A stretch of 21,342 bases of DNA from a virus, in IMG/VR virus record IMGVR_UViG_3300031857_001632, positions 1 to 21,342 of that record; one strand, given 5' to 3'. The number at the start of each line of letters is the position of its first letter. Positions within the stretch are counted from its first letter, which is position 1. Both the position numbers and the translations under genes were made by a program. Positions 1 to 16,255 of this stretch are shown here, piece by piece. Under the pieces are notes generated by a model. It had not been told where the DNA came from. It was given only the letters and a program-made list of their open reading frames with translations, and did no database searches.

Positions 1-1936
1 CAGTATATCCAGTGTAGTTACGAACAAAGTGCCCAGCATCACGGGATTCAAGAATACGCATTCCAATAAAATTCACACTGGGGAAATTATCACGAAGATT
101 CCGAAGAAGAAGGTCGGTAAATGAACTGGCATTATTCCAATTCTTTTCAGAGAACTTATAGACATTTCCAGTCTTACGATCCCGCAGATAAGCATTATCA
201 GTCACATAATTACATCCCAAATAAGACTCTCCATTCTCCCAATTGCGTTTGATTTCACGATAATACTTCAAAGGAGCAGCTTCACCATCAGTTAGAACAA
301 CACACTGAACTTTCTGCAGTTTGTTCTCACTTTGGAATTTGGGGAGGATTTGATGTAAGGCAACAAGTGACTCATTCAAAGGAGTGCCTGAAAGAGTCAT
401 TCTGTGAGGAGCTTGATAGGCACAATAGGCAGAACGGTCGTGATATTTGGCAACCCGATAAATGTTCTTGAGTTGAGTATCAAGAACCGAACTTTTTACT
501 TTGCTGGTAAGAATGTTCATCAAACCAAAGGAATAATCAATTACCAGTTCATTTTCTTTACGAGGAGTATGTTCTTTAGGAGTACTAGTCACTTTACCAT
601 CAGCATCATATGAAGACCTATAGTTCCAATCATTTGTAAAGGCATAAACCTCAAAAGGAATATTCACCTTATTACAGAACCAGATAAGATTATAAAGTTG
701 CTTGACAGTATCCATAAGAACATTACTCATAGAACCAGACCAGTCCAGAACGAAAACCAGACCGTGATTCTTACCGTTGGCAAATGTGGTTACTTTCTTA
801 AATAAATCCTCCTGATACTTATAAGTATGAAGTTTGGTGCAGTCCAGAACACCAGTCTTTGAGACAGATGCACGGGCATAGGAATCTGCTGCCTTACGGC
901 ATTCAAATTCTTTCACCAGATAATTAACTTCCTTTTGTGCAGAACGCTTAAAATTCACATAATCACTATCAACAGTATCAAAAATATTAACATCGTCCTG
1001 AATATAAACTTGCTTTTCCCAGGTTTCTTTACAGTTTTCGTGAATAATTTGATTTGAAATAATCACGGAATCCATATTCAGTTTGGGAAGTTCAAGATAG
1101 ATATTCTCATGGATACTATTATTAATGAGTTCTTTCAGGTTTTCCTCAAGAGAATTCATAGTCTTCACATCTGGTTCGGCGTGTTCTCCACCAGTCTGTT
1201 GAATATTTTGGTTGTCAAACTTTTTACCTTGAGTTTGTTGCTCAGACCCAGAAGTTTGTTGCTTATCCTCACCACCTTCACCATCCTCTTCGGGAAAAAG
1301 TTCTTGCTGTTCTTCGGATTTATCTCCAGCACCAGATCCAGGAGACTGTTCGTGATTATCAATACTGGGAAGTTGAATGGTTTCTTCCTGCTTTTGAGTG
1401 CAGTATTCATAAAGAACCTTGGCAGCATCCAGAGTTTCAGTAAAAGTCTCTGCCTTACCAATCATATCTACGATTTCCTGTTCCCTCTTGGTGAATTCAA
1501 GAGTCAAGAAATTGCCAACCTTGAAGTAAAGATTCACACGGTCGGCAAGATTATAGGTTGAAAGGTCATCGTCGCCAACCTGAAAGAAATCATCTTCCTG
1601 AAGTTCCCGATAGGCAGCATAGAAGGTCTTTGCCAGACCGGCATAACGACGCTTCATTAGTTTCTCCACACGGGCATCCTCACACACATTCACAAACTGT
1701 GGAGGAACCTGAACCTGCTCCGTCCAGTCCTCATCAGGCGTGTAGAGAGCGTGAGAGACTTCGTGAGCAACCAACATATCATAAACTCCACTACTTGCCT
1801 TCTGCCACATAGGAAGCGTCAGAACCCGCGTATGAACGTTAAAGCAGGCAGTCTCAACCTTCTTGTGTTCCACAATCAGGTCTTCCGTTGCCAGAAGACG
1901 GGCGAGCATACCTTTTACTTCAAAATTTACGGTCAT
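1..1936 (-). CDS. CobT-like metallopeptidase / von Willebrand A domain protein (partial, 3' end outside window)
   Basis: The frame is open from the ATG at 1936 to the window edge (645 codons, no stop), so the C-terminus is missing. An N-terminal domain carries HEVSH (H58, E59, H62) and, 24 residues on, NVCEDARVE with E86: a gluzincin-like zinc site HExxH...E. Residues about 200-265 are a Gln/Glu/Gly-rich linker. From about 390 comes a von Willebrand A domain with a full MIDAS: DWSGSM at 398-403, T518 in SGTP, and D550 in LTDGE. This layout resembles CobT and related bacterial vWA proteins that work with MoxR/CobS-type AAA+ ATPases; cyanophages are known to carry a cobS-like gene. A role as substrate adaptor or metal-dependent protease for such an ATPase is inference. 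It may instead be a virion-associated peptidase. A TATAAT box lies upstream; no Shine-Dalgarno is visible. Sure of the domains, unsure of function. Confidence 0.85.
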   Translation of the reverse strand, partial: MTVNFEVKGMLARLLATEDLIVEHKKVETACFNVHTRVLTLPMWQKASSGVYDMLVAHEVSHALYTPDEDWTEQVQVPPQFVNVCEDARVEKLMKRRYAGLAKTFYAAYRELQEDDFFQVGDDDLSTYNLADRVNLYFKVGNFLTLEFTKREQEIVDMIGKAETFTETLDAAKVLYEYCTQKQEETIQLPSIDNHEQSPGSGAGDKSEEQQELFPEEDGEGGEDKQQTSGSEQQTQGKKFDNQNIQQTGGEHAEPDVKTMNSLEENLKELINNSIHENIYLELPKLNMDSVIISNQIIHENCKETWEKQVYIQDDVNIFDTVDSDYVNFKRSAQKEVNYLVKEFECRKAADSYARASVSKTGVLDCTKLHTYKYQEDLFKKVTTFANGKNHGLVFVLDWSGSMSNVLMDTVKQLYNLIWFCNKVNIPFEVYAFTNDWNYRSSYDADGKVTSTPKEHTPRKENELVIDYSFGLMNILTSKVKSSVLDTQLKNIYRVAKYHDRSAYCAYQAPHRMTLSGTPLNESLVALHQILPKFQSENKLQKVQCVVLTDGEAAPLKYYREIKRNWENGESYLGCNYVTDNAYLRDRKTGNVYKFSEKNWNNASSFTDLLLRNLRDNFPSVNFIGMRILESRDAGHFVRNYTGYT

Positions 1937-1961: not shown

Positions 1962-1967
1962 ATTATA
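1962..1967 (-). promoter_or_regulatory. Possible sigma70-type -10 box for the CobT-like gene
   Basis: The minus strand reads TATAAT about 26 nt upstream of the ATG at 1936. It sits directly behind the T-tract of the preceding terminator. The expected -35 region falls inside the terminator hairpin and matches TTGACA poorly, so this is a weak call. Confidence 0.4.
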
Positions 1968-1968
1968 C

Positions 1969-1995
1969 AAAAAAAGAGGGTGGTAAAACCCTCTT
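1969..1995 (-). terminator. Rho-independent terminator after the 146-aa gene
   Basis: On the minus strand a 7-bp stem AAGAGGG/CCCTCTT with an 8-nt loop is followed by a run of T. It begins 24 nt after the stop codon at 2019 and would end transcripts of the 146-aa gene. Confidence 0.85.
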
Positions 1996-2018
1996 GTGTG
2001 CCAGTTTTGGAAGTGGTC

Positions 2019-2459
2019 TTAACGTCCCTGCCTTTTCATAAAGGCAGCAAAAGCGGGTGAATTTATTCCTGTATTTGGATCTTCCATTGCTTTTTGCTTT
2101 TTACTCTTTGCTTTTCTTTGTCTCTCCTCATAATCTTCAGGATTATTGCGAGCCTCTTGTGCTTCAACAATACTCTGTCTCCACCCTTCGCTCATATTTG
2201 CCATAATCGCAAATGCCGCTTCTGGTGTTTCGGCATATCCACCTTCAAGAAGATATGAACGGATGATATCAAAGGGGTCGGTTTCTTCTTTTACTGGATT
2301 ATGAACTCTGGCAGGTCCAGCATCTTTCATTAATCTTTTATTTTTAGTCGATTTTGTAATTCTTTCTGGCGCTTCCTCATCAAGTTTCTCTACCTCTTCT
2401 TGAGGTTGATGAACCAGGCTATAAGCCTTATAAAGATCTTTAACTTCTTGTTCTCTCAT
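2019..2459 (-). CDS. Hypothetical protein, 146 aa, with a GYAE/MSxxW helical motif
   Basis: Function is not recognised. The protein is charged and probably helical, with a Lys/Arg-rich segment at residues 34-44 and another (RQRKAKSKKQK) near 113-123. Its most distinctive part, about residues 63-98, reads DIIRSYLLEGGYAETPEAA followed by MANMSEGWRQSI. That pattern (hydrophobic helix, GYAE, Ala, then MSxxW) recurs in the 52-aa protein at 9333-9491, and from memory it is common in small proteins of marine T4-like phages. The gene stands alone, with its own TATAAATA late promoter 20 nt upstream and a terminator behind it. Late, possibly virion-associated expression is inferred from the promoter type only. 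No strong ribosome binding site is seen. Confidence 0.8.
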   Translation of the reverse strand: MREQEVKDLYKAYSLVHQPQEEVEKLDEEAPERITKSTKNKRLMKDAGPARVHNPVKEETDPFDIIRSYLLEGGYAETPEAAFAIMANMSEGWRQSIVEAQEARNNPEDYEERQRKAKSKKQKAMEDPNTGINSPAFAAFMKRQGR

Positions 2460-2649: not shown

Positions 2650-2679
2650 ATTATAGCGGTCAGGTGACTGACCAGTCAA
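2650..2679 (-). promoter_or_regulatory. Sigma70-like promoter with a palindromic spacer
   Basis: On the minus strand TTGACT (2674-2679) and TATAAT (2650-2655) are 18 nt apart. The spacer contains a perfect inverted repeat GGTCAG-TCAC-CTGACC (2658-2673) that could be an operator. It overlaps the last codons of the dehydrogenase gene. It probably drives the small basic ORF early in infection. Confidence 0.55.
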
Positions 2680-3448
2680 TAACGGTTCTGATTTCCTGAT
2701 TGTACTTCCATACTTCCATAAGCATATCTGCATTTATTCCATTTGCTTCCATTTGGACAATTAATGAATTTAAATCTTTGGGGAAGCAGGTTCCGCCGAA
2801 ACCACGATCATTATCAAATCCAGGAACTTTGGTGTGAGAATTACCAATTCTACTGTCGGCAACTACACCAGAACAAACAGTTTCATAATTCATCCCAAGT
2901 GATTCACATAAATCATACATTTTGTTGAAGTATGCAACTTTACATGCAAGAAAACTATTTGCAAAATATTTAATAGATTCACTTTCATTGGAGGAAGTAA
3001 TCACACTTGGAATATCTGGAAAAATAGTTTTGAAAAAATTCACAAACTGTTGACATAGATTTTTATCTCCACCAACCACATTTCTTTCAGAATTTCTAAA
3101 ATCTTCTACAGCATTCCTGGCGGTTAAGAATTCTGGATTATGAATAACTTTATATTTTTTAGAATATTTTTTAGTTGTTCCAATTGGGACGGTAGATTTT
3201 ATAATAAAAATACCATCAACAACTTTAGGTAGATCTTTAAAGAAATTGTCTAAAATGGAAAGATCGCACTCCCCAGTTGATTTCATTGGGGTAGGCAAAC
3301 AAACAAAAATAAAAGATTGATTTAAAACTTCATCCAGACTATTAAAAGATTTGTTTTTATCAACATCAAAAACTTTACAGGATACTTTATCCCTTAAATT
3401 TTGATATACAGCATTACCAACAAACCCATTTCCAATAATTCCGATCAT
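2660..3448 (-). CDS. UDP-glucose/GDP-mannose dehydrogenase family protein, C-terminally short
   Basis: Members oxidise a nucleotide sugar twice with NAD to give the uronate (for example UDP-glucuronate). The N-terminal Rossmann motif GIIGNGFVG is at residues 3-11. STVPIGTT (85-92), NPEFL with E107, the FLACK lysine K170 and the catalytic-cysteine motif FGGTCFPKD with C221 are all present. At 262 aa it stops soon after the central helix. Bacterial enzymes of about 390-440 aa continue with a C-terminal nucleotide-sugar binding domain, which is missing here, so substrate choice cannot be read. The ATG overlaps the gp46 stop by 4 nt, so it is translationally coupled to gp46. A role in modifying cell-surface or phage sugars is inference. 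Family assignment is firm. Confidence 0.9.
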   Translation of the reverse strand: MIGIIGNGFVGNAVYQNLRDKVSCKVFDVDKNKSFNSLDEVLNQSFIFVCLPTPMKSTGECDLSILDNFFKDLPKVVDGIFIIKSTVPIGTTKKYSKKYKVIHNPEFLTARNAVEDFRNSERNVVGGDKNLCQQFVNFFKTIFPDIPSVITSSNESESIKYFANSFLACKVAYFNKMYDLCESLGMNYETVCSGVVADSRIGNSHTKVPGFDNDRGFGGTCFPKDLNSLIVQMEANGINADMLMEVWKYNQEIRTVIDWSVT

Positions 3449-9032: not shown

Positions 9033-9323
9033 TTATTTTGTGTTTGGATTAATTGAAACACCAGGATCTCCAACCTTAAATCCTTTTCCAGCACCAGATC
9101 TAATAGTAGTTCCAGAAAGAGGTTTTACTACATCCATTGCTCCACTAATATTATCGGAAGCAGTATCTTTTGGATCATTTGCAGTTGCATTCATGCCAAT
9201 TTGTCTCATCCTTGATGCAGAACCCATTGATCTTGCGTGTGCCGCTTGAACTGCCGGTGCTTTATAATCTATGTAATTAGATGGAAGGGTAGATTGTTCC
9301 AAAAACTGTCGAAACGTCTTCAT
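9033..9323 (-). CDS. Small protein with MKTF capsid-targeting-type N-terminus, 96 aa
   Basis: The sequence begins MKTFRQFLEQS, close to MKTYQEFIAEA, the capsid-targeting sequence of T4 internal proteins (for example IPIII), which the gp21 protease removes after an (I/L)xE site. Here the nearest candidate is FLE at residues 7-9, a non-canonical match. The rest is low-complexity and Ala/Ser/Gly-rich with no recognised domain, ending in a Gly/Pro/Asn-rich tail. It lies 9 nt after the 52-aa gene and is followed directly by a terminator. A role as a protein packaged inside the head is inference from the N-terminus and the neighbourhood. Confidence 0.8.
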   Translation of the reverse strand: MKTFRQFLEQSTLPSNYIDYKAPAVQAAHARSMGSASRMRQIGMNATANDPKDTASDNISGAMDVVKPLSGTTIRSGAGKGFKVGDPGVSINPNTK

Positions 9324-9948: not shown

Positions 9949-10490
9949 AGAGGATCGCCATTTACATCTAATATGTTATAGACAGTATACTTGAAAAGTA
10001 CCTCTGCTGTAAAGTAGTTATAGTCGGTTTCTGTTGATTCAAATTCCATTGCACTCAATGTGAATGGAAATAAATCTTTAAATTTTACTATGGCAACATC
10101 ATTATAATTGCTATTTAAAATTCTTAAACTACCGTCACTATATTGACTTTTTAAATCCCTTATTCCATCATCATTAGTTGTCAACTCTTTGAATTGTTGT
10201 GGAGTTTCTGGAAATCCTAAACCAGTAATCCAGTTATGAATTGCCATGTAGTTTTCCATATCTTCATCAACAAAAAATCTCAAAGAAAAATCTCCATATT
10301 GGATTATTTCTCCTGGAGTATCCAACATCTTTAAATATGATGGTTGTATAGCAGTTCCTAAAGTAATTTCTGGAATTCTTGCAGAATTACTAAAGAATGA
10401 AATTTTAGGATTTTTTGCTACGGTAAATTTAAATCCAATTGGAGAGAGGAAATTTCTATTTCCAATTTGATTGTCAAAAATTGATGCCAT
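9945..10490 (-). CDS. 3: Tail-tube-fold protein, probably gp3 tail completion and sheath stabiliser
   Basis: The 181-aa protein resembles gp19: FFSNSARIPEITLG aligns with the FMVKAAALPASNLG stretch of the tube protein, and FSLRFFVDEDMENYMAIHNW with its TVLNDTNFTLRHAFEDW. It is therefore a second member of the tail-tube fold. Position between 23 and uvsY is where cyanophages carry gene 3, whose T4 product caps the tail tube near the neck. The ATG overlaps the stop of the preceding 60-aa gene in a TAATG. Fold assignment is firm; the choice of gp3 over another tube-like protein rests on gene order. Confidence 0.75.
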   Translation of the reverse strand: MASIFDNQIGNRNFLSPIGFKFTVAKNPKISFFSNSARIPEITLGTAIQPSYLKMLDTPGEIIQYGDFSLRFFVDEDMENYMAIHNWITGLGFPETPQQFKELTTNDDGIRDLKSQYSDGSLRILNSNYNDVAIVKFKDLFPFTLSAMEFESTETDYNYFTAEVLFKYTVYNILDVNGDPL

Positions 10491-10672
10491 TATGGTAGTT
10501 TACCAATAGTTTGTAATGTAAATTTAACAGGTGGTTTAGATTTAGTTCCTGGACCCATGGGTCTTGAAGAATTTAAATTTTTTTGAGTTGCGGGATCCAT
10601 TGCAAATGTTTGTTTTGCATTTACAGGTGCCCTATATTCAGCTTCCGAAATAAATTCTTGAAACGTCTTCAT
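10490..10672 (-). CDS. Small protein with T4-type capsid-targeting sequence, 60 aa
   Basis: The N-terminus MKTFQEFISEAEYR is almost the T4 internal-protein capsid-targeting sequence MKTYQEFIAEA. ISE|A at residues 8-11 fits the gp21 protease rule (I/L)xE, so cleavage after E10 is predicted. The remaining 50 residues are basic and Pro/Asn/Lys-rich (PMGPGTKSKPPVKF) without a known fold. It is the first gene behind the gp23 terminator, with a CTAAATA element 12 nt upstream, and is coupled to gp3 by TAATG. Likely role: a small protein carried in the head. Inference from motif plus location next to the capsid genes. Confidence 0.8.
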   Translation of the reverse strand: MKTFQEFISEAEYRAPVNAKQTFAMDPATQKNLNSSRPMGPGTKSKPPVKFTLQTIGKLP

Positions 10673-10683
10673 TTTTTTATTTC

Positions 10684-10690
10684 TATTTAG
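10684..10690 (-). promoter_or_regulatory. Possible late-promoter variant CTAAATA
   Basis: CTAAATA lies immediately downstream of the gp23 terminator and 12 nt before the ATG at 10672. The spacing to the ATG is short for a -10 box with a leader, so the call is tentative. Confidence 0.4.
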
Positions 10691-10692
10691 AT

Positions 10693-10717
10693 AAAAAAAG
10701 AGGGTCCGAAGACCCTC
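10693..10717 (-). terminator. Rho-independent terminator of gp23 with UUCG loop
   Basis: The minus strand forms GAGGGTC-TTCG-GACCCTC followed by seven T. C(UUCG)G is the exceptionally stable tetraloop, fitting the end of the most abundant late transcript. Confidence 0.95.
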
Positions 10718-10738
10718 AAGAAATTTATGTGAAATGGA

Positions 10739-12187
10739 TCACATGAGGTTGAGAACCTTAACTCTTCTGTAGTAACGGTTAGCGTTAACTCTGAGGCGTC
10801 CAAGACCCTGGTCGGTTCCTTCTGCGAATGGGTTAGCAACAAGACCATAACGGGTCTTAAAGCCAATCTTGGGCTGGAAGGTGTTCTCACCAACGGCACG
10901 AACCATTTGGAGGGGAACATAAGGGCAATAGAAGAGACCAGCGTCATATGCGCTAGAACCCTTATAACCAACAACGTAGTACTGACCACCAGCAGAACCA
11001 ACGTTTGAACCGCCCGAATATGGGTCGATATAAACGCGATACTTACCTTGGAGAACACCAGCGAAGGTGTTACCAGTGTCATCAACGTTAAGGTTAGCGT
11101 TGAGTGCAGGGGTGTAATCAAGAACACCTGCCATGGTGAGTGCCGAAGCAACGTCAGCAGAGCAGAGGATCATGTTGCCCTTCCCTCTACGAGTTCTTTG
11201 TGCGATTGCGTTAGCATCGCGCTCGATTTGGAAGATAAGACCCTTGAACTTCTCAACTGACCAACGTCCGTTGGAGTCAACATCTAGGTCGAACTGACCA
11301 GCGGTAGCAGTGTTGTGTTGAGCACCTGATTCTGCAACCTTATAGATGGTTCTGATGACTTCGCGGTTGATTTCAGCAAGAATCTCGCTAGAAAGAATGT
11401 TAGCAAGTTCTGCTTCTGCATTTAAACCGTGAATTGCCTTCAGGTCTTGAGCAAGTTCGAGGCTGTATTCTGCTTTCAGAGCACGGCTCTTGGCAGTAAC
11501 AGTGACCTTCTCGATTGAGAACGCCATTTGGTTGAACTCGTTTCCACCAGTTCCAAGACCTTCTGCATCTTCAGTGTCCATACCACGTCCAGTGGTATAA
11601 GCAGATTGAGTTACATTGCTGTCTGGGCTGAGGAGACCGGGATTGGTTCCACCTTGAGCAGCAGTTGTACCGAAACCAACAGCGCCGCCAGTTTCACTAC
11701 CCTCATTTTGGGTATATCCAGAACCAAGACCGCCGGCTGCGCGGGCAGATCCTTGTGCTGAATATGCAGTATCTGGCTCGTTGAAGAATGCTTCATCCGA
11801 ACTGTTGCTTTGTGCTCCATAACGTGAGCGCATTGCAAAGATGAGTCCGGTAGGACCATTCATTGGTTGAACGCCAGCGAGGTCATATGCGACCAGGTTA
11901 GGCATTGAACGGCGGATGAGGCTGATTAGAACAGGGTCGAAACCTGAAACAGGACCAGCATCAGCTGCGTTTGCACTGAAACCTGCGGTTGCACCGCTGG
12001 ATCCAGTTGACATGTTAGGAACAGCTTCGTTGAGGAAAGCACGCTCCTCACGAAGTTCTCTCTCTTGGTTTTCTAGCAGGATAGCGGTGACAGCTCTACG
12101 ATGTGAATCTCTGATTGGATCCATTCCATCGTAATCGAGGATCGGTGCCCACTTCTCCTGCAATTGTTCTGCATTGAACATTTGCAT
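10739..12187 (-). CDS. 23: gp23, major capsid protein
   Basis: The 482-aa product aligns with T4 gp23 from the N-terminus: QLQEKWAPILD, then RRSMPNLVAYDLAGVQPMNG and PTGLIFAMRSRYG, close to T4 RRAIPNLIAFDICGVQPMNS. T4 gp23 is cut by gp21 after FLTE65; here FLNE|A at residues 51-55 is the matching site, so a mature form from A55 is predicted. I chose the first ATG (12187), 8 nt from the SD GAGGT; an in-frame ATG two codons later is spaced less well. The start region carries the same 16-nt SD block as gp19. No TATAAATA lies directly upstream, so expression may come from the gp22 promoter. A UUCG terminator follows. Confidence 0.98.
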   Translation of the reverse strand: MQMFNAEQLQEKWAPILDYDGMDPIRDSHRRAVTAILLENQERELREERAFLNEAVPNMSTGSSGATAGFSANAADAGPVSGFDPVLISLIRRSMPNLVAYDLAGVQPMNGPTGLIFAMRSRYGAQSNSSDEAFFNEPDTAYSAQGSARAAGGLGSGYTQNEGSETGGAVGFGTTAAQGGTNPGLLSPDSNVTQSAYTTGRGMDTEDAEGLGTGGNEFNQMAFSIEKVTVTAKSRALKAEYSLELAQDLKAIHGLNAEAELANILSSEILAEINREVIRTIYKVAESGAQHNTATAGQFDLDVDSNGRWSVEKFKGLIFQIERDANAIAQRTRRGKGNMILCSADVASALTMAGVLDYTPALNANLNVDDTGNTFAGVLQGKYRVYIDPYSGGSNVGSAGGQYYVVGYKGSSAYDAGLFYCPYVPLQMVRAVGENTFQPKIGFKTRYGLVANPFAEGTDQGLGRLRVNANRYYRRVKVLNLM

Positions 12188-14106: not shown

Positions 14107-14370
14107 TTAGTTTGTGAATGCTACTTTATTTGCTTTGATTGATGCAGATGACCAAATAACATCAGATGGAGTTTTAGCTAAAAATTCAACACTTCCATTT
14201 GGAATAGAGAAATATGTACTAGTTGCTGCTCCAACAGAAGTGCTTATTGCAACTGTAACAATACCAGCAGTATTGTTATATAATCTCACACAAGTTGCAT
14301 CACTAATACTAGTAGCAGCTCCAGCACTAGTACCGGTACTTTGTTCTGTTGTTACTATCTTAGTAATCAT
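14107..14370 (-). CDS. Small beta-type protein in the gene 68 position, 87 aa
   Basis: The protein is rich in Thr, Ser, Ala and Val with almost no charged clusters: CVRLYNNTAGIVTVAIST, then YFSIPNGSVEFLAK and ASIKANKVAFT. It looks like a small all-beta domain. In T4 the gene between 67 and 21 is 68, a charged helical core protein; this is not similar, so it is probably a replacement rather than gp68. Similar short beta proteins are, to my memory, common in marine phages without a known role; a decoration or structural part is a guess. ATG overlaps the gp67 stop (ATGA) and its stop abuts gp21, so it is coupled in the head operon. Confidence 0.8.
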   Translation of the reverse strand: MITKIVTTEQSTGTSAGAATSISDATCVRLYNNTAGIVTVAISTSVGAATSTYFSIPNGSVEFLAKTPSDVIWSSASIKANKVAFTN

Positions 14371-14546
14371 TCTTCATCCCCAGTAGTTTCTGACTGATCT
14401 CCAAGTTCTCCAAATAATTTGAATGCAACTGAAGGTCTTATTGCATCTATTTTTTCTGAAGCTTTATTAAAAATCAATTCTTTAATTTTGCCACTTACGT
14501 CCGATGCGGGCGAATTAGTTGCGATCAAATCCAAAAGTTCTTCCAT
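14367..14546 (-). CDS. 67: gp67-like prohead core protein, 59 aa
   Basis: ATG at 14546 to TGA at 14367 encodes 59 residues. The start MEELLDLIATNSPASDV and the later helix EKIDAIRPSVAFKLF follow the T4 gp67 pattern (MEGLIEAIKSNDLVAARKLF), and the C-terminus is acidic (DQSETTGDEE), as in gp67 but much shorter than the long acidic tail of T4. gp67 is a small core protein needed for prohead shape and is cut by gp21. Gene position between 20 and 21 agrees. A TATAAATA promoter overlaps the end of gp20, 33 nt upstream. The stop overlaps the next ATG by 4 nt. Confidence 0.8.
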   Translation of the reverse strand: MEELLDLIATNSPASDVSGKIKELIFNKASEKIDAIRPSVAFKLFGELGDQSETTGDEE

Positions 14547-14578
14547 AAGATTTCAATGTGTTTATAAACCTATATTTT

Positions 14579-14586
14579 TATTTATA
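14579..14586 (-). promoter_or_regulatory. T4-type late promoter TATAAATA upstream of gp67
   Basis: Exact consensus overlapping the last codon and stop of gp20, 33 nt before the gp67 ATG. It would drive gp67, the 87-aa gene and gp21. Confidence 0.75.
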
Positions 14587-16255
14587 TTTCTGCTTTTTTA
14601 GTATCTTTTTGAACCTGTGCGTTAGTATCTTTAGATTGAGATTCTAAATCAGGTTCTTGAGGAACATCACCCATCATTTGCTCCTCACCACCAGCTGGAA
14701 GGGGTTCTCCCGTGATTGGATCAATTGAATTTGGGTCGGGAATAATTCCTTCTTTAATTTCCTTTTCTATTTGCTCATCAATCTCGATAATTTCACTATC
14801 AGTTTGACGAAGTACTTTTCTTCGAACATATTCTGCAGAATAATATTTACCAATATAGGGTTCTATAGTAGCAAGAATTCCTAAGCGATCAGTCATCAAT
14901 TCGCTTTCTTTTAGTTCTGCAAATTGATTATCATATAAAAAGTCATATTGAACATGATCAACAATTTTGTCCCAATCTTCTGGGGTTACAATATTTTTTA
15001 AAATCAATTGTGTGCGAAGAAAGTCATTGAATAAATTTGCAAAACGCTTTCTTAAACGTCCGACAAATTTAGAAAACTTTAATTCATCTCTTAATATTTC
15101 TGAAGAGCGACCAAGATTGAATCCACCATCACTCGCAATTCTAGATTCCGGAACTCCAAGTGCTCTGTAGAGTTTCTTTTGGAAATATTCAATATCAGAA
15201 AGTTCTCCAAGATTTTGACCGCCTGGAAGAGTTGTAATTTCAGTTCCTCTACCACCTTCTCTCCTTGGAAGCCAAAAATCTTCCATCATACTCATGAATT
15301 TACGATCATCACGAACTTCCCCAGTCTCTGCATTGTATACCAGTTTATTTCTGTAACGATACATTACATCCTTAAGGTATTGCTCTGCCTTGACCTTCGG
15401 AAGATTGCCGACGTCAATATAAAAAATTCTTCTTTCTGGAGCACGAGACAATCTATAAATTACAAGGGAATCTTCAATCATTCTTAATTGATTGAGTGCT
15501 TTAATTGCTTTGTGTAGGTAAGATAAAACTGTTCCTTTGTTTCTATCTACTAATCCAGAACTACAGTACGTAATAGAATCTTTAGCAATTTTTATTGATT
15601 TTTGTCCGTATAAACTTGCAACAGATCCAGTTGGACTTTTTGGTAGTGGAGTGTAAATATAATATTCATCTATTTCCGGAGTAAATGTTTTTTCAACATC
15701 TCTCATTCCAGTTCTAACTGCAATATTATCCTTTGATTCGCTCTTTTTTTCTTGACGAACGTATTTCATCTTCATAGGATCAATATACCTCAGATCCTTT
15801 ATACCCTCTTCGGGATTTTTAATGTCAATGACTTTTAGATAAAATAGTCTACCATCTACATACCAATTTCTAAAAATTTCATGGCACTTCTTATCGAAGT
15901 CCATAATTTCTTTAATATATTTGAATTCTTCTCTTATAATTTTTTTTAATTTGTCACTAACATCTAGATTTGAAAGTTCAATTTCAACTGGGGAATCATA
16001 TAAATCACTTACAATAGCTTCATTAACAACATCTTCAATAGCATTATCACACTCTGGGTGTAATGCCATTTCCCTATATCTTTTAATTAGGTCGTACTCT
16101 GTTCTGTAAACACCCTCAATGTCTACGTAAGACCCATAAAAACCACTGGCAATATAATTATCAACCCCGTCCTCATTATTTTGGGGAACGGGGGAGACAA
16201 TTGATTTTGCTTGATTATTACTATCATCAATTGAAAAACCAAAAAGCTTTGCCAT
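14582..16255 (-). CDS. 20: gp20, portal protein
   Basis: The portal forms the dodecameric vertex ring that nucleates prohead assembly, docks the gp17 motor and holds the neck. The 557-aa protein (T4: 524) shows the gp20 hallmarks: YREMALHPECDNAIEDVVNE near 63-82, EIELSNL, FRNWYVDGRLFYLKVID, YIDPMKMKYVR, LSRAPERRIFYIDVGNLPK, YRNKLVYNAETGEVRDDRK and MEDFWLPRREGGRGTEI. The C-terminal about 55 residues are acidic and Gln/Pro-rich. It lies between gp19 and gp67. An ATAAATA late-promoter variant sits 24 nt upstream. This gene is the standard marker used to type cyanomyoviruses. Confidence 0.98.
   Translation of the reverse strand: MAKLFGFSIDDSNNQAKSIVSPVPQNNEDGVDNYIASGFYGSYVDIEGVYRTEYDLIKRYREMALHPECDNAIEDVVNEAIVSDLYDSPVEIELSNLDVSDKLKKIIREEFKYIKEIMDFDKKCHEIFRNWYVDGRLFYLKVIDIKNPEEGIKDLRYIDPMKMKYVRQEKKSESKDNIAVRTGMRDVEKTFTPEIDEYYIYTPLPKSPTGSVASLYGQKSIKIAKDSITYCSSGLVDRNKGTVLSYLHKAIKALNQLRMIEDSLVIYRLSRAPERRIFYIDVGNLPKVKAEQYLKDVMYRYRNKLVYNAETGEVRDDRKFMSMMEDFWLPRREGGRGTEITTLPGGQNLGELSDIEYFQKKLYRALGVPESRIASDGGFNLGRSSEILRDELKFSKFVGRLRKRFANLFNDFLRTQLILKNIVTPEDWDKIVDHVQYDFLYDNQFAELKESELMTDRLGILATIEPYIGKYYSAEYVRRKVLRQTDSEIIEIDEQIEKEIKEGIIPDPNSIDPITGEPLPAGGEEQMMGDVPQEPDLESQSKDTNAQVQKDTKKAEI

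Follow-up and report, generated by a model that had tools for sequence, protein, structure and literature searches.

Described relatives of the gene pair considered here include two machines built from an AAA+ ATPase and a vWA protein. In NorQ/NorD, cryo-EM located a finger of the vWA domain inside the AAA+ pore, with the vWA and N-terminal domains joined by a stretched linker (PMC13036017), and the N-terminal domain of NorD is a lever in the published model. Aerobic cobaltochelatase likewise consists of an AAA+ ATPase (CobS) and a vWA/MIDAS partner (CobT), homologous to the phage pair. Phage pairs of this kind have been read in two ways. Liu et al. 2021 (PMC8651126) identified the phage pair as cobaltochelatase CobST and regarded its 'peptidase' label as a misannotation. 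Iyer et al. 2021 (PMC7824862), in their account of group 2.2 jumbo phages, described a MoxR gene paired with a vWA protein that bears a metallopeptidase domain at its N terminus and proposed a role in virion assembly with processing; this description of the pair is for group 2.2 and does not name the cyanophage genes. Neither the gene nor its pairing nor either interpretation is new to the literature. As a side observation, the name 'cobS' in the literature and in phage annotations mixes two unrelated enzymes, the AAA+ subunit of cobaltochelatase and cobalamin synthase (as in the S-RSM4 annotation), and cyanophage papers call cobS the final-step cobalamin synthase, which is a different enzyme.

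The window, meaning the whole stretch of 21,342 bases that was analysed, is a fragment of a T4-like cyanophage whose record ends at position 1. Its minus strand carries gp17, gp18, gp19, gp20, gp21, gp22, gp23, gp3, uvsY, uvsW, gp55, gp47 and gp46, several of these names being assigned by gene order, as well as a CobT-like gene laid out as an N-terminal HExxH metallopeptidase domain, an acidic disordered linker, a helical segment and a C-terminal vWA/MIDAS domain. The features of this gene are as follows.

Positions 2 to 1936, minus strand: CobT-like gene, a single frame of 645 amino acids that stays open up to position 1, matching phrog_459.
Positions 1376 to 1936, minus strand: predicted N-terminal metallopeptidase domain, residues 1-187, from the AlphaFold2 model and its structural neighbours.
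Positions 1751 to 1765, minus strand: HEVSH zinc motif, residues 58-62 (H58-E59-V-S-H62), from its invariance in 61 relatives.
Positions 1664 to 1681, minus strand: EDARVE motif, residues 86-91, with E86, D87 and R89 invariant and E86 as the candidate third zinc ligand.
Positions 1178 to 1375, minus strand: acidic linker, residues 188-253, predicted to be disordered (pLDDT under 50).
Positions 2 to 772, minus strand: vWA domain, of which residues 389-645 are present, from the structural matches of the model.
Positions 731 to 745, minus strand: MIDAS motif 1, DWSGS, residues 398-402 (D398-W-S400-G-S402), with D, S, G and S invariant and W replaced by Y in phage OC.
Positions 380 to 391, minus strand: MIDAS motif 2, SGTP, residues 516-519, with the metal-ligand Thr518, from the alignment of 61 proteins.
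Positions 281 to 295, minus strand: MIDAS motif 3, LTDGE, residues 548-552, with Asp550, from the same alignment.

The window gene is an already catalogued core gene of marine T4-like cyanophages, annotated 'peptidase' beside 'cobS'. The phrog_459 'peptidase' profile covers residues 3-644 of its product (E-value 1.8e-239), and the gene order after gp46 matches that of syn9 and P-HM2, with extra ORFs in the window; in P-HM2, the gene is T4-GC 146 and adjoins cobS, T4-GC 150. The window protein was matched by 463 phage records (460 of them with at least 80% coverage), nearly all from Synechococcus and Prochlorococcus phages, with an identity of at most 57% to cultured phages and of 100% over 626 residues to an IMG/VR contig. 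Records holding the CobT-like gene numbered 365 against 381 for the portal gene under 'Synechococcus' and 61 against 62 under 'Cyanophage', which is in line with a near-universal cyanophage gene. The original prediction of a complete vWA domain holds for the MIDAS residues, all of which are present, but not for the end of the domain: since the record end cuts the gene and full-length relatives have about 726 residues (726-727 at 94% identity; 726 in the relative L008), about 81 C-terminal vWA residues are missing. Pfam placed neither a peptidase nor a vWA domain over the cut-off on the window protein, and Pfam and NCBIfam together gave no domain over the cut-off on a full-length relative. Because Pfam alone recognises neither domain, the original motif reading added information; HEVSH, E86, DWSGS, SGTP and LTDGE are all where it had placed them and are conserved in the 61 relatives.

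Some further genes of the window were also recorded. Two small minus-strand proteins (10490-10672 and 9033-9323) begin with MKTFQEFISEA and MKTFRQFLEQS, respectively; these starts resemble the sequence that targets internal head proteins of T4 to the capsid, and the two products are possibly packaged. A C-terminal module like GYAETPEAAxAIMANMSEEW is shared by the 146-aa ORF that precedes the peptidase gene (2019-2459, minus strand) and by small ORFs between the peptidase gene and cobS at two other loci (L001, ~14208-15116; L007, ~10405-11064). After gp46, at 2660-3448 on the minus strand, lies a UDP-glucose/GDP-mannose dehydrogenase-like gene, of which the NAD-binding and central domains alone were matched.

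Both putative metal sites are conserved almost without exception. In the alignment of 61 proteins, which takes in the distant Ochrobactrum phage OC, residues H58, E59, H62, E86, D87 and R89 of the N-terminal domain and D398, S400, G401, S402, P519 and D550 of the vWA domain are invariant, while T518 is Thr in 60 proteins and Ser in one; this invariance argues that neither the zinc nor the MIDAS motifs arose by chance. When the N-terminal domain was modelled alone by AlphaFold2 (pLDDT 87.4, pTM 0.84), HExxH fell in a predicted helix (residues 49-65) and E86 in the following one (79-97), so the gluzincin signature of HExxH plus a downstream Glu in the next helix is found throughout the 61 proteins, with the helices taken from the model. 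The leading structural neighbours of this model are mostly zinc metallopeptidases, namely ArdC, abylysin, jannalysin, selecase, BlaR1, IrrE/PprI and Wss1, of which abylysin and jannalysin are minigluzincins; the fold scores are modest (best Z 7.0 for ArdC, 4.8 for Wss1, and Foldseek E-values of 0.08 or worse). Among predicted viral structures, CobT-like proteins of haloarchaeal and Gordonia phages were matched. Taken together with the invariant ligands, these neighbours suggest, short of proof, a gluzincin fold for the modelled domain.

The full-length model (pLDDT 70.5) comprises an ordered N-terminal domain, the disordered linker at residues 188-253, helices and the vWA domain. Its best structural matches over residues 277-726 are the vWA domain of NorD and the MIDAS domains of Midasin/Rea1 (Z 12.1-15.6). 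For the C-terminal half, NorD ranks first (Z 15.6, with an rmsd of 5.2 across 250 residues); in the single-chain model this match begins at residue 279, ahead of the vWA core. Sequence profiles of the phage protein searched against PDB sequences gave no CobT, NorD or peptidase match. NorD shares with the phage protein the MIDAS, an N-terminal domain and a long linker, but where NorD has its lever the phage protein has a predicted peptidase with intact catalytic residues.

The original prediction called for an AAA+ partner gene, to be sought past position 1, where the window record ends. Every one of the 58 cyanophage loci whose sequence includes the stop codon and continues for at least 1.5 kb carries such a gene, CobS/MoxR-like and on the same strand, downstream of the CobT-like gene at a distance of 39-1500 nt (median 236). 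Searches of the window's own record for an AAA+ domain (PF07728) and for CobN were both empty, as expected for a 21 kb fragment. The partner protein belongs to AAA_5 (64-67 bits) and is related to midasin, CobS and NorQ; with the MIDAS invariant, each of the 58 loci therefore holds an AAA_5-type gene next to a vWA/MIDAS gene, as in MoxR AAA+/vWA pairs. The pair is flanked by gp46/gp47/uvsW/uvsY on one side and gp45/gp44 on the other, following gp46/gp47 and preceding the sliding clamp and clamp loader in S-SRM01, syn9, P-HM2, P-SSM3 and phage OC. A genome scan with a single query returned one near-identical cellular locus and nothing else.

The region upstream of the CobT-like gene contains three features.

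Positions 1962 to 1967, minus strand: TATAAT -10 box, 26-31 nt before the ATG, with no late TATAAATA.
Positions 1976 to 1993, minus strand: terminator-like hairpin (GAGGGTTTTACCACCCTC, then T7), between the -10 box and the element below.
Positions 1997 to 2017, minus strand: ACCACTT-N4-AACTGGCACA element, some 32 nt ahead of the -10 box; it recurs before cobS in relatives, at the same spacing.

Exact TATAAT boxes occur in 21 of the 46 distinct regions upstream of the peptidase gene and in 34 of the 44 upstream of cobS. The T4-like late promoter TATAAATA was found in none of the 46 or the 44, whereas gp22 and gp18, also in the window, have it. The sequence CCASTT-N-AACTGNC is common to both genes and ends 31-33 nt before TATAAT, and 57 of its 74 occurrences in the cyanophage loci fall within 160 nt before the peptidase gene or cobS. 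We rejected the idea of a regulon private to these two genes, as a genome-wide search found a wider promoter class in which an AACTGNC box stands 30-34 nt upstream of TATAAT, with 10 copies in S-SRM01 and 14 in a 234 kb contig (reversed-pattern control: none in either). The other S-SRM01 occurrences lie mostly among small non-structural genes, one being inside a putative tail-fibre gene. The AACTGNC box probably serves early or middle genes as an activator site. Because late promoters are absent and the AACTGNC box with TATAAT is shared, both genes likely belong to the early or middle class. The neighbouring upstream gene, which encodes 146 aa, carries a promoter of late type, so read-through into the peptidase gene is possible, although the terminator-like hairpin stands in between.

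Related pairs also occur on plasmids. Searches by tblastn with the phage AAA+ protein and with a plasmid vWA protein each matched more than 2,000 plasmid records, many of them from Escherichia, Klebsiella and Salmonella; IncC and IncHI2 plasmids are included among the records with relatives of the vWA protein. The plasmid pairs (IncC, IncHI2 and related) share with the phage pair the HExxH motif, the vWA MIDAS and the AAA+ partner, and in most cases ExxRxE, but differ in having an extra DUF3150 gene, an AAA+ gene located upstream instead of downstream, and a divergent sequence. The plasmids inspected have ssb, bet, exo, recT, radC, toprim, helicase or DNA methylase genes close to the HExxH-vWA gene, which is usually accompanied by DUF3150, and a module of MoxR, DUF3150 and HExxH-vWA often stands beside ssb/bet/exo or recT/exo (loci L083, L085 and L090-L094). 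In SSU5-like elements, the next gene encodes DNA polymerase III alpha. One Pseudomonas aeruginosa plasmid locus has DUF3150 and hypothetical genes as neighbours and no DNA-metabolism gene.

A question raised by these findings is which function they fit. In the proposal of Liu et al. 2021, which has the standing of a reading already in print, the pair is a viral CobST that joins the host CobN, inserts cobalt, and boosts B12 and thereby nucleotide reduction during infection. The homology of the pair to CobS/CobT is in its favour (the phage AAA+ protein matches TIGR01650 with 60 bits), as is the fact that cyanobacteria carry CobN without CobS/CobT; CobN was found in the cyanobacterial control. 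However, those 60 bits compare with a curated CobS cut-off of 558 and a score of 651 for Sinorhizobium meliloti CobS, and the CobS_N segment (PF12556) of genuine CobS, scoring 62.8 bits in the S. meliloti protein, has no match in the phage AAA+ protein. The vWA protein departs further from its namesake. TIGR01651 (CobT cut-off 759 bits; S. meliloti CobT 1166) did not match the 94%-identical full-length relative or syn9 at E-values up to 1, and the CobT families PF06213 and CobT_C PF11775, which score 325 and 373 bits in S. meliloti CobT, did not match the window protein, L008 or syn9. The HExxH motif is present in 18 of 18 phage and plasmid proteins and in none of five genuine CobTs (four annotated alphaproteobacterial proteins and one more divergent Burkholderia protein encoded beside a CobS), although genuine CobT shares the Glu at the E86 position and has a recognisable ExxRxE region. 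In trees of the AAA+ and of the vWA proteins, genuine CobS/CobT form one group and the cyanophage proteins another, on long branches. Moreover, Escherichia coli plasmids carry related pairs while the E. coli control genome lacks CobN, and the phage and plasmid neighbourhoods that were inspected contained no cobalamin genes. These results uphold the doubt about cobalamin in the original prediction: the phage proteins do not pass the curated tests for CobT and CobS, and they retain a peptidase motif absent from real CobT. This motif is real, conserved in the phage family and missing from the metabolic enzyme, which makes the 'peptidase' label at least as defensible as 'CobT'. We therefore regard a viral cobaltochelatase as unlikely.

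Somewhat less likely still is an anti-host or counter-defence protease, by which the pair would dismantle a host defence or a host DNA-bound complex early in infection. Such a role would explain the spread of the pair over phages and conjugative plasmids, and it agrees with the early/middle-type promoters and with the anti-restriction protein ArdC being among the nearest folds (Z 7.0). Against this, the ArdC match is common to many zincins, no defence genes were found among the neighbours, and the gene is a core gene in nearly all T4-like cyanophages; defence-linked genes are usually patchy in distribution. The least likely of the alternatives is virion assembly, with the pair as a chaperone-peptidase that remodels and trims structural proteins in head or tail maturation: the jumbo phages in the group 2.2 account of Iyer et al. 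2021 have genes paired in the same way and with matching domains, and the structural genes of the window lie further along in the same strand block, but the cyanophage promoter evidence argues against the role proposed there, conjugative plasmids carry related pairs and build no virion, and a prohead protease, gp21, already exists in T4-like phages. Overall, these tests disfavour both published readings as stated.

The evidence points to a protein-remodelling machine in preference to a vitamin B12 enzyme. The reading that we prefer, and to which we give about an even chance, is a MoxR AAA+/vWA/gluzincin remodelling protease that is made early or in the middle of infection and likely acts on DNA-replication/recombination proteins or DNA-bound host proteins. 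We infer a remodelling protease because the parts of NorQ/NorD are present here, with a peptidase-type domain replacing the N-terminal domain of NorD. The CobT-like protein would be the vWA partner of the MoxR-family AAA+ ATPase called cobS, and the pair would be expressed early or in the middle of infection from promoters of the host-sigma type. By analogy with NorQ/NorD, the two proteins would form a complex in which the AAA+ hexamer is the docking site of the vWA domain and the MIDAS metal binds the client, and ATP hydrolysis would twist the vWA domain against the N-terminal domain via the flexible linker. The remodelled or pulled-open client may then be clipped by the N-terminal peptidase, a step suggested by the intact gluzincin-type motif that distinguishes this domain from NorD and from genuine CobT.

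As to the substrate of this putative remodelling protease, DNA replication or recombination proteins, or host proteins bound to DNA, would be the likeliest clients. The neighbours of the pair across elements are mostly replication/recombination genes, and together with the timing they make DNA-metabolism proteins a first guess, one that is more apt to be wrong than right. Gene neighbourhood is a weak clue here, as there are other reasons for the conserved gene order of T4-like phages and the P. aeruginosa plasmid locus has no DNA-metabolism neighbour.

A more specific version, which we consider distinctly doubtful, would make the cyanophage 'cobS' the motor of an early/middle ATP-driven metalloprotease whose task is to remove or process proteins on DNA undergoing replication and recombination, instead of an auxiliary metabolic gene for B12, and would make genuine CobT a relative that lost its peptidase. 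The machine would be, in mobile elements of prokaryotes, the functional counterpart of Wss1/SPRTN with Cdc48, in which a zinc metallopeptidase works with an AAA+ motor near DNA during DNA-protein crosslink repair. That likeness is a functional analogy only, since Cdc48 belongs to a different AAA+ family, the system has no vWA domain, and Wss1 is among the weaker fold matches.

The present analysis adds evidence by which the published readings, which predict opposite outcomes, can be told apart, and it opens the role of the core cyanophage 'cobS' to testing. Few core genes of marine T4-like cyanophages have names; cobS, which is one of them, serves as a community marker and is routinely taken as a sign that phages boost B12. 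If its obligatory partner is indeed an active metallopeptidase, the B12 reading would be mistaken for a phage group that is among the most abundant in the sea, and research would have missed a core step in the infection cycle of cyanophages.
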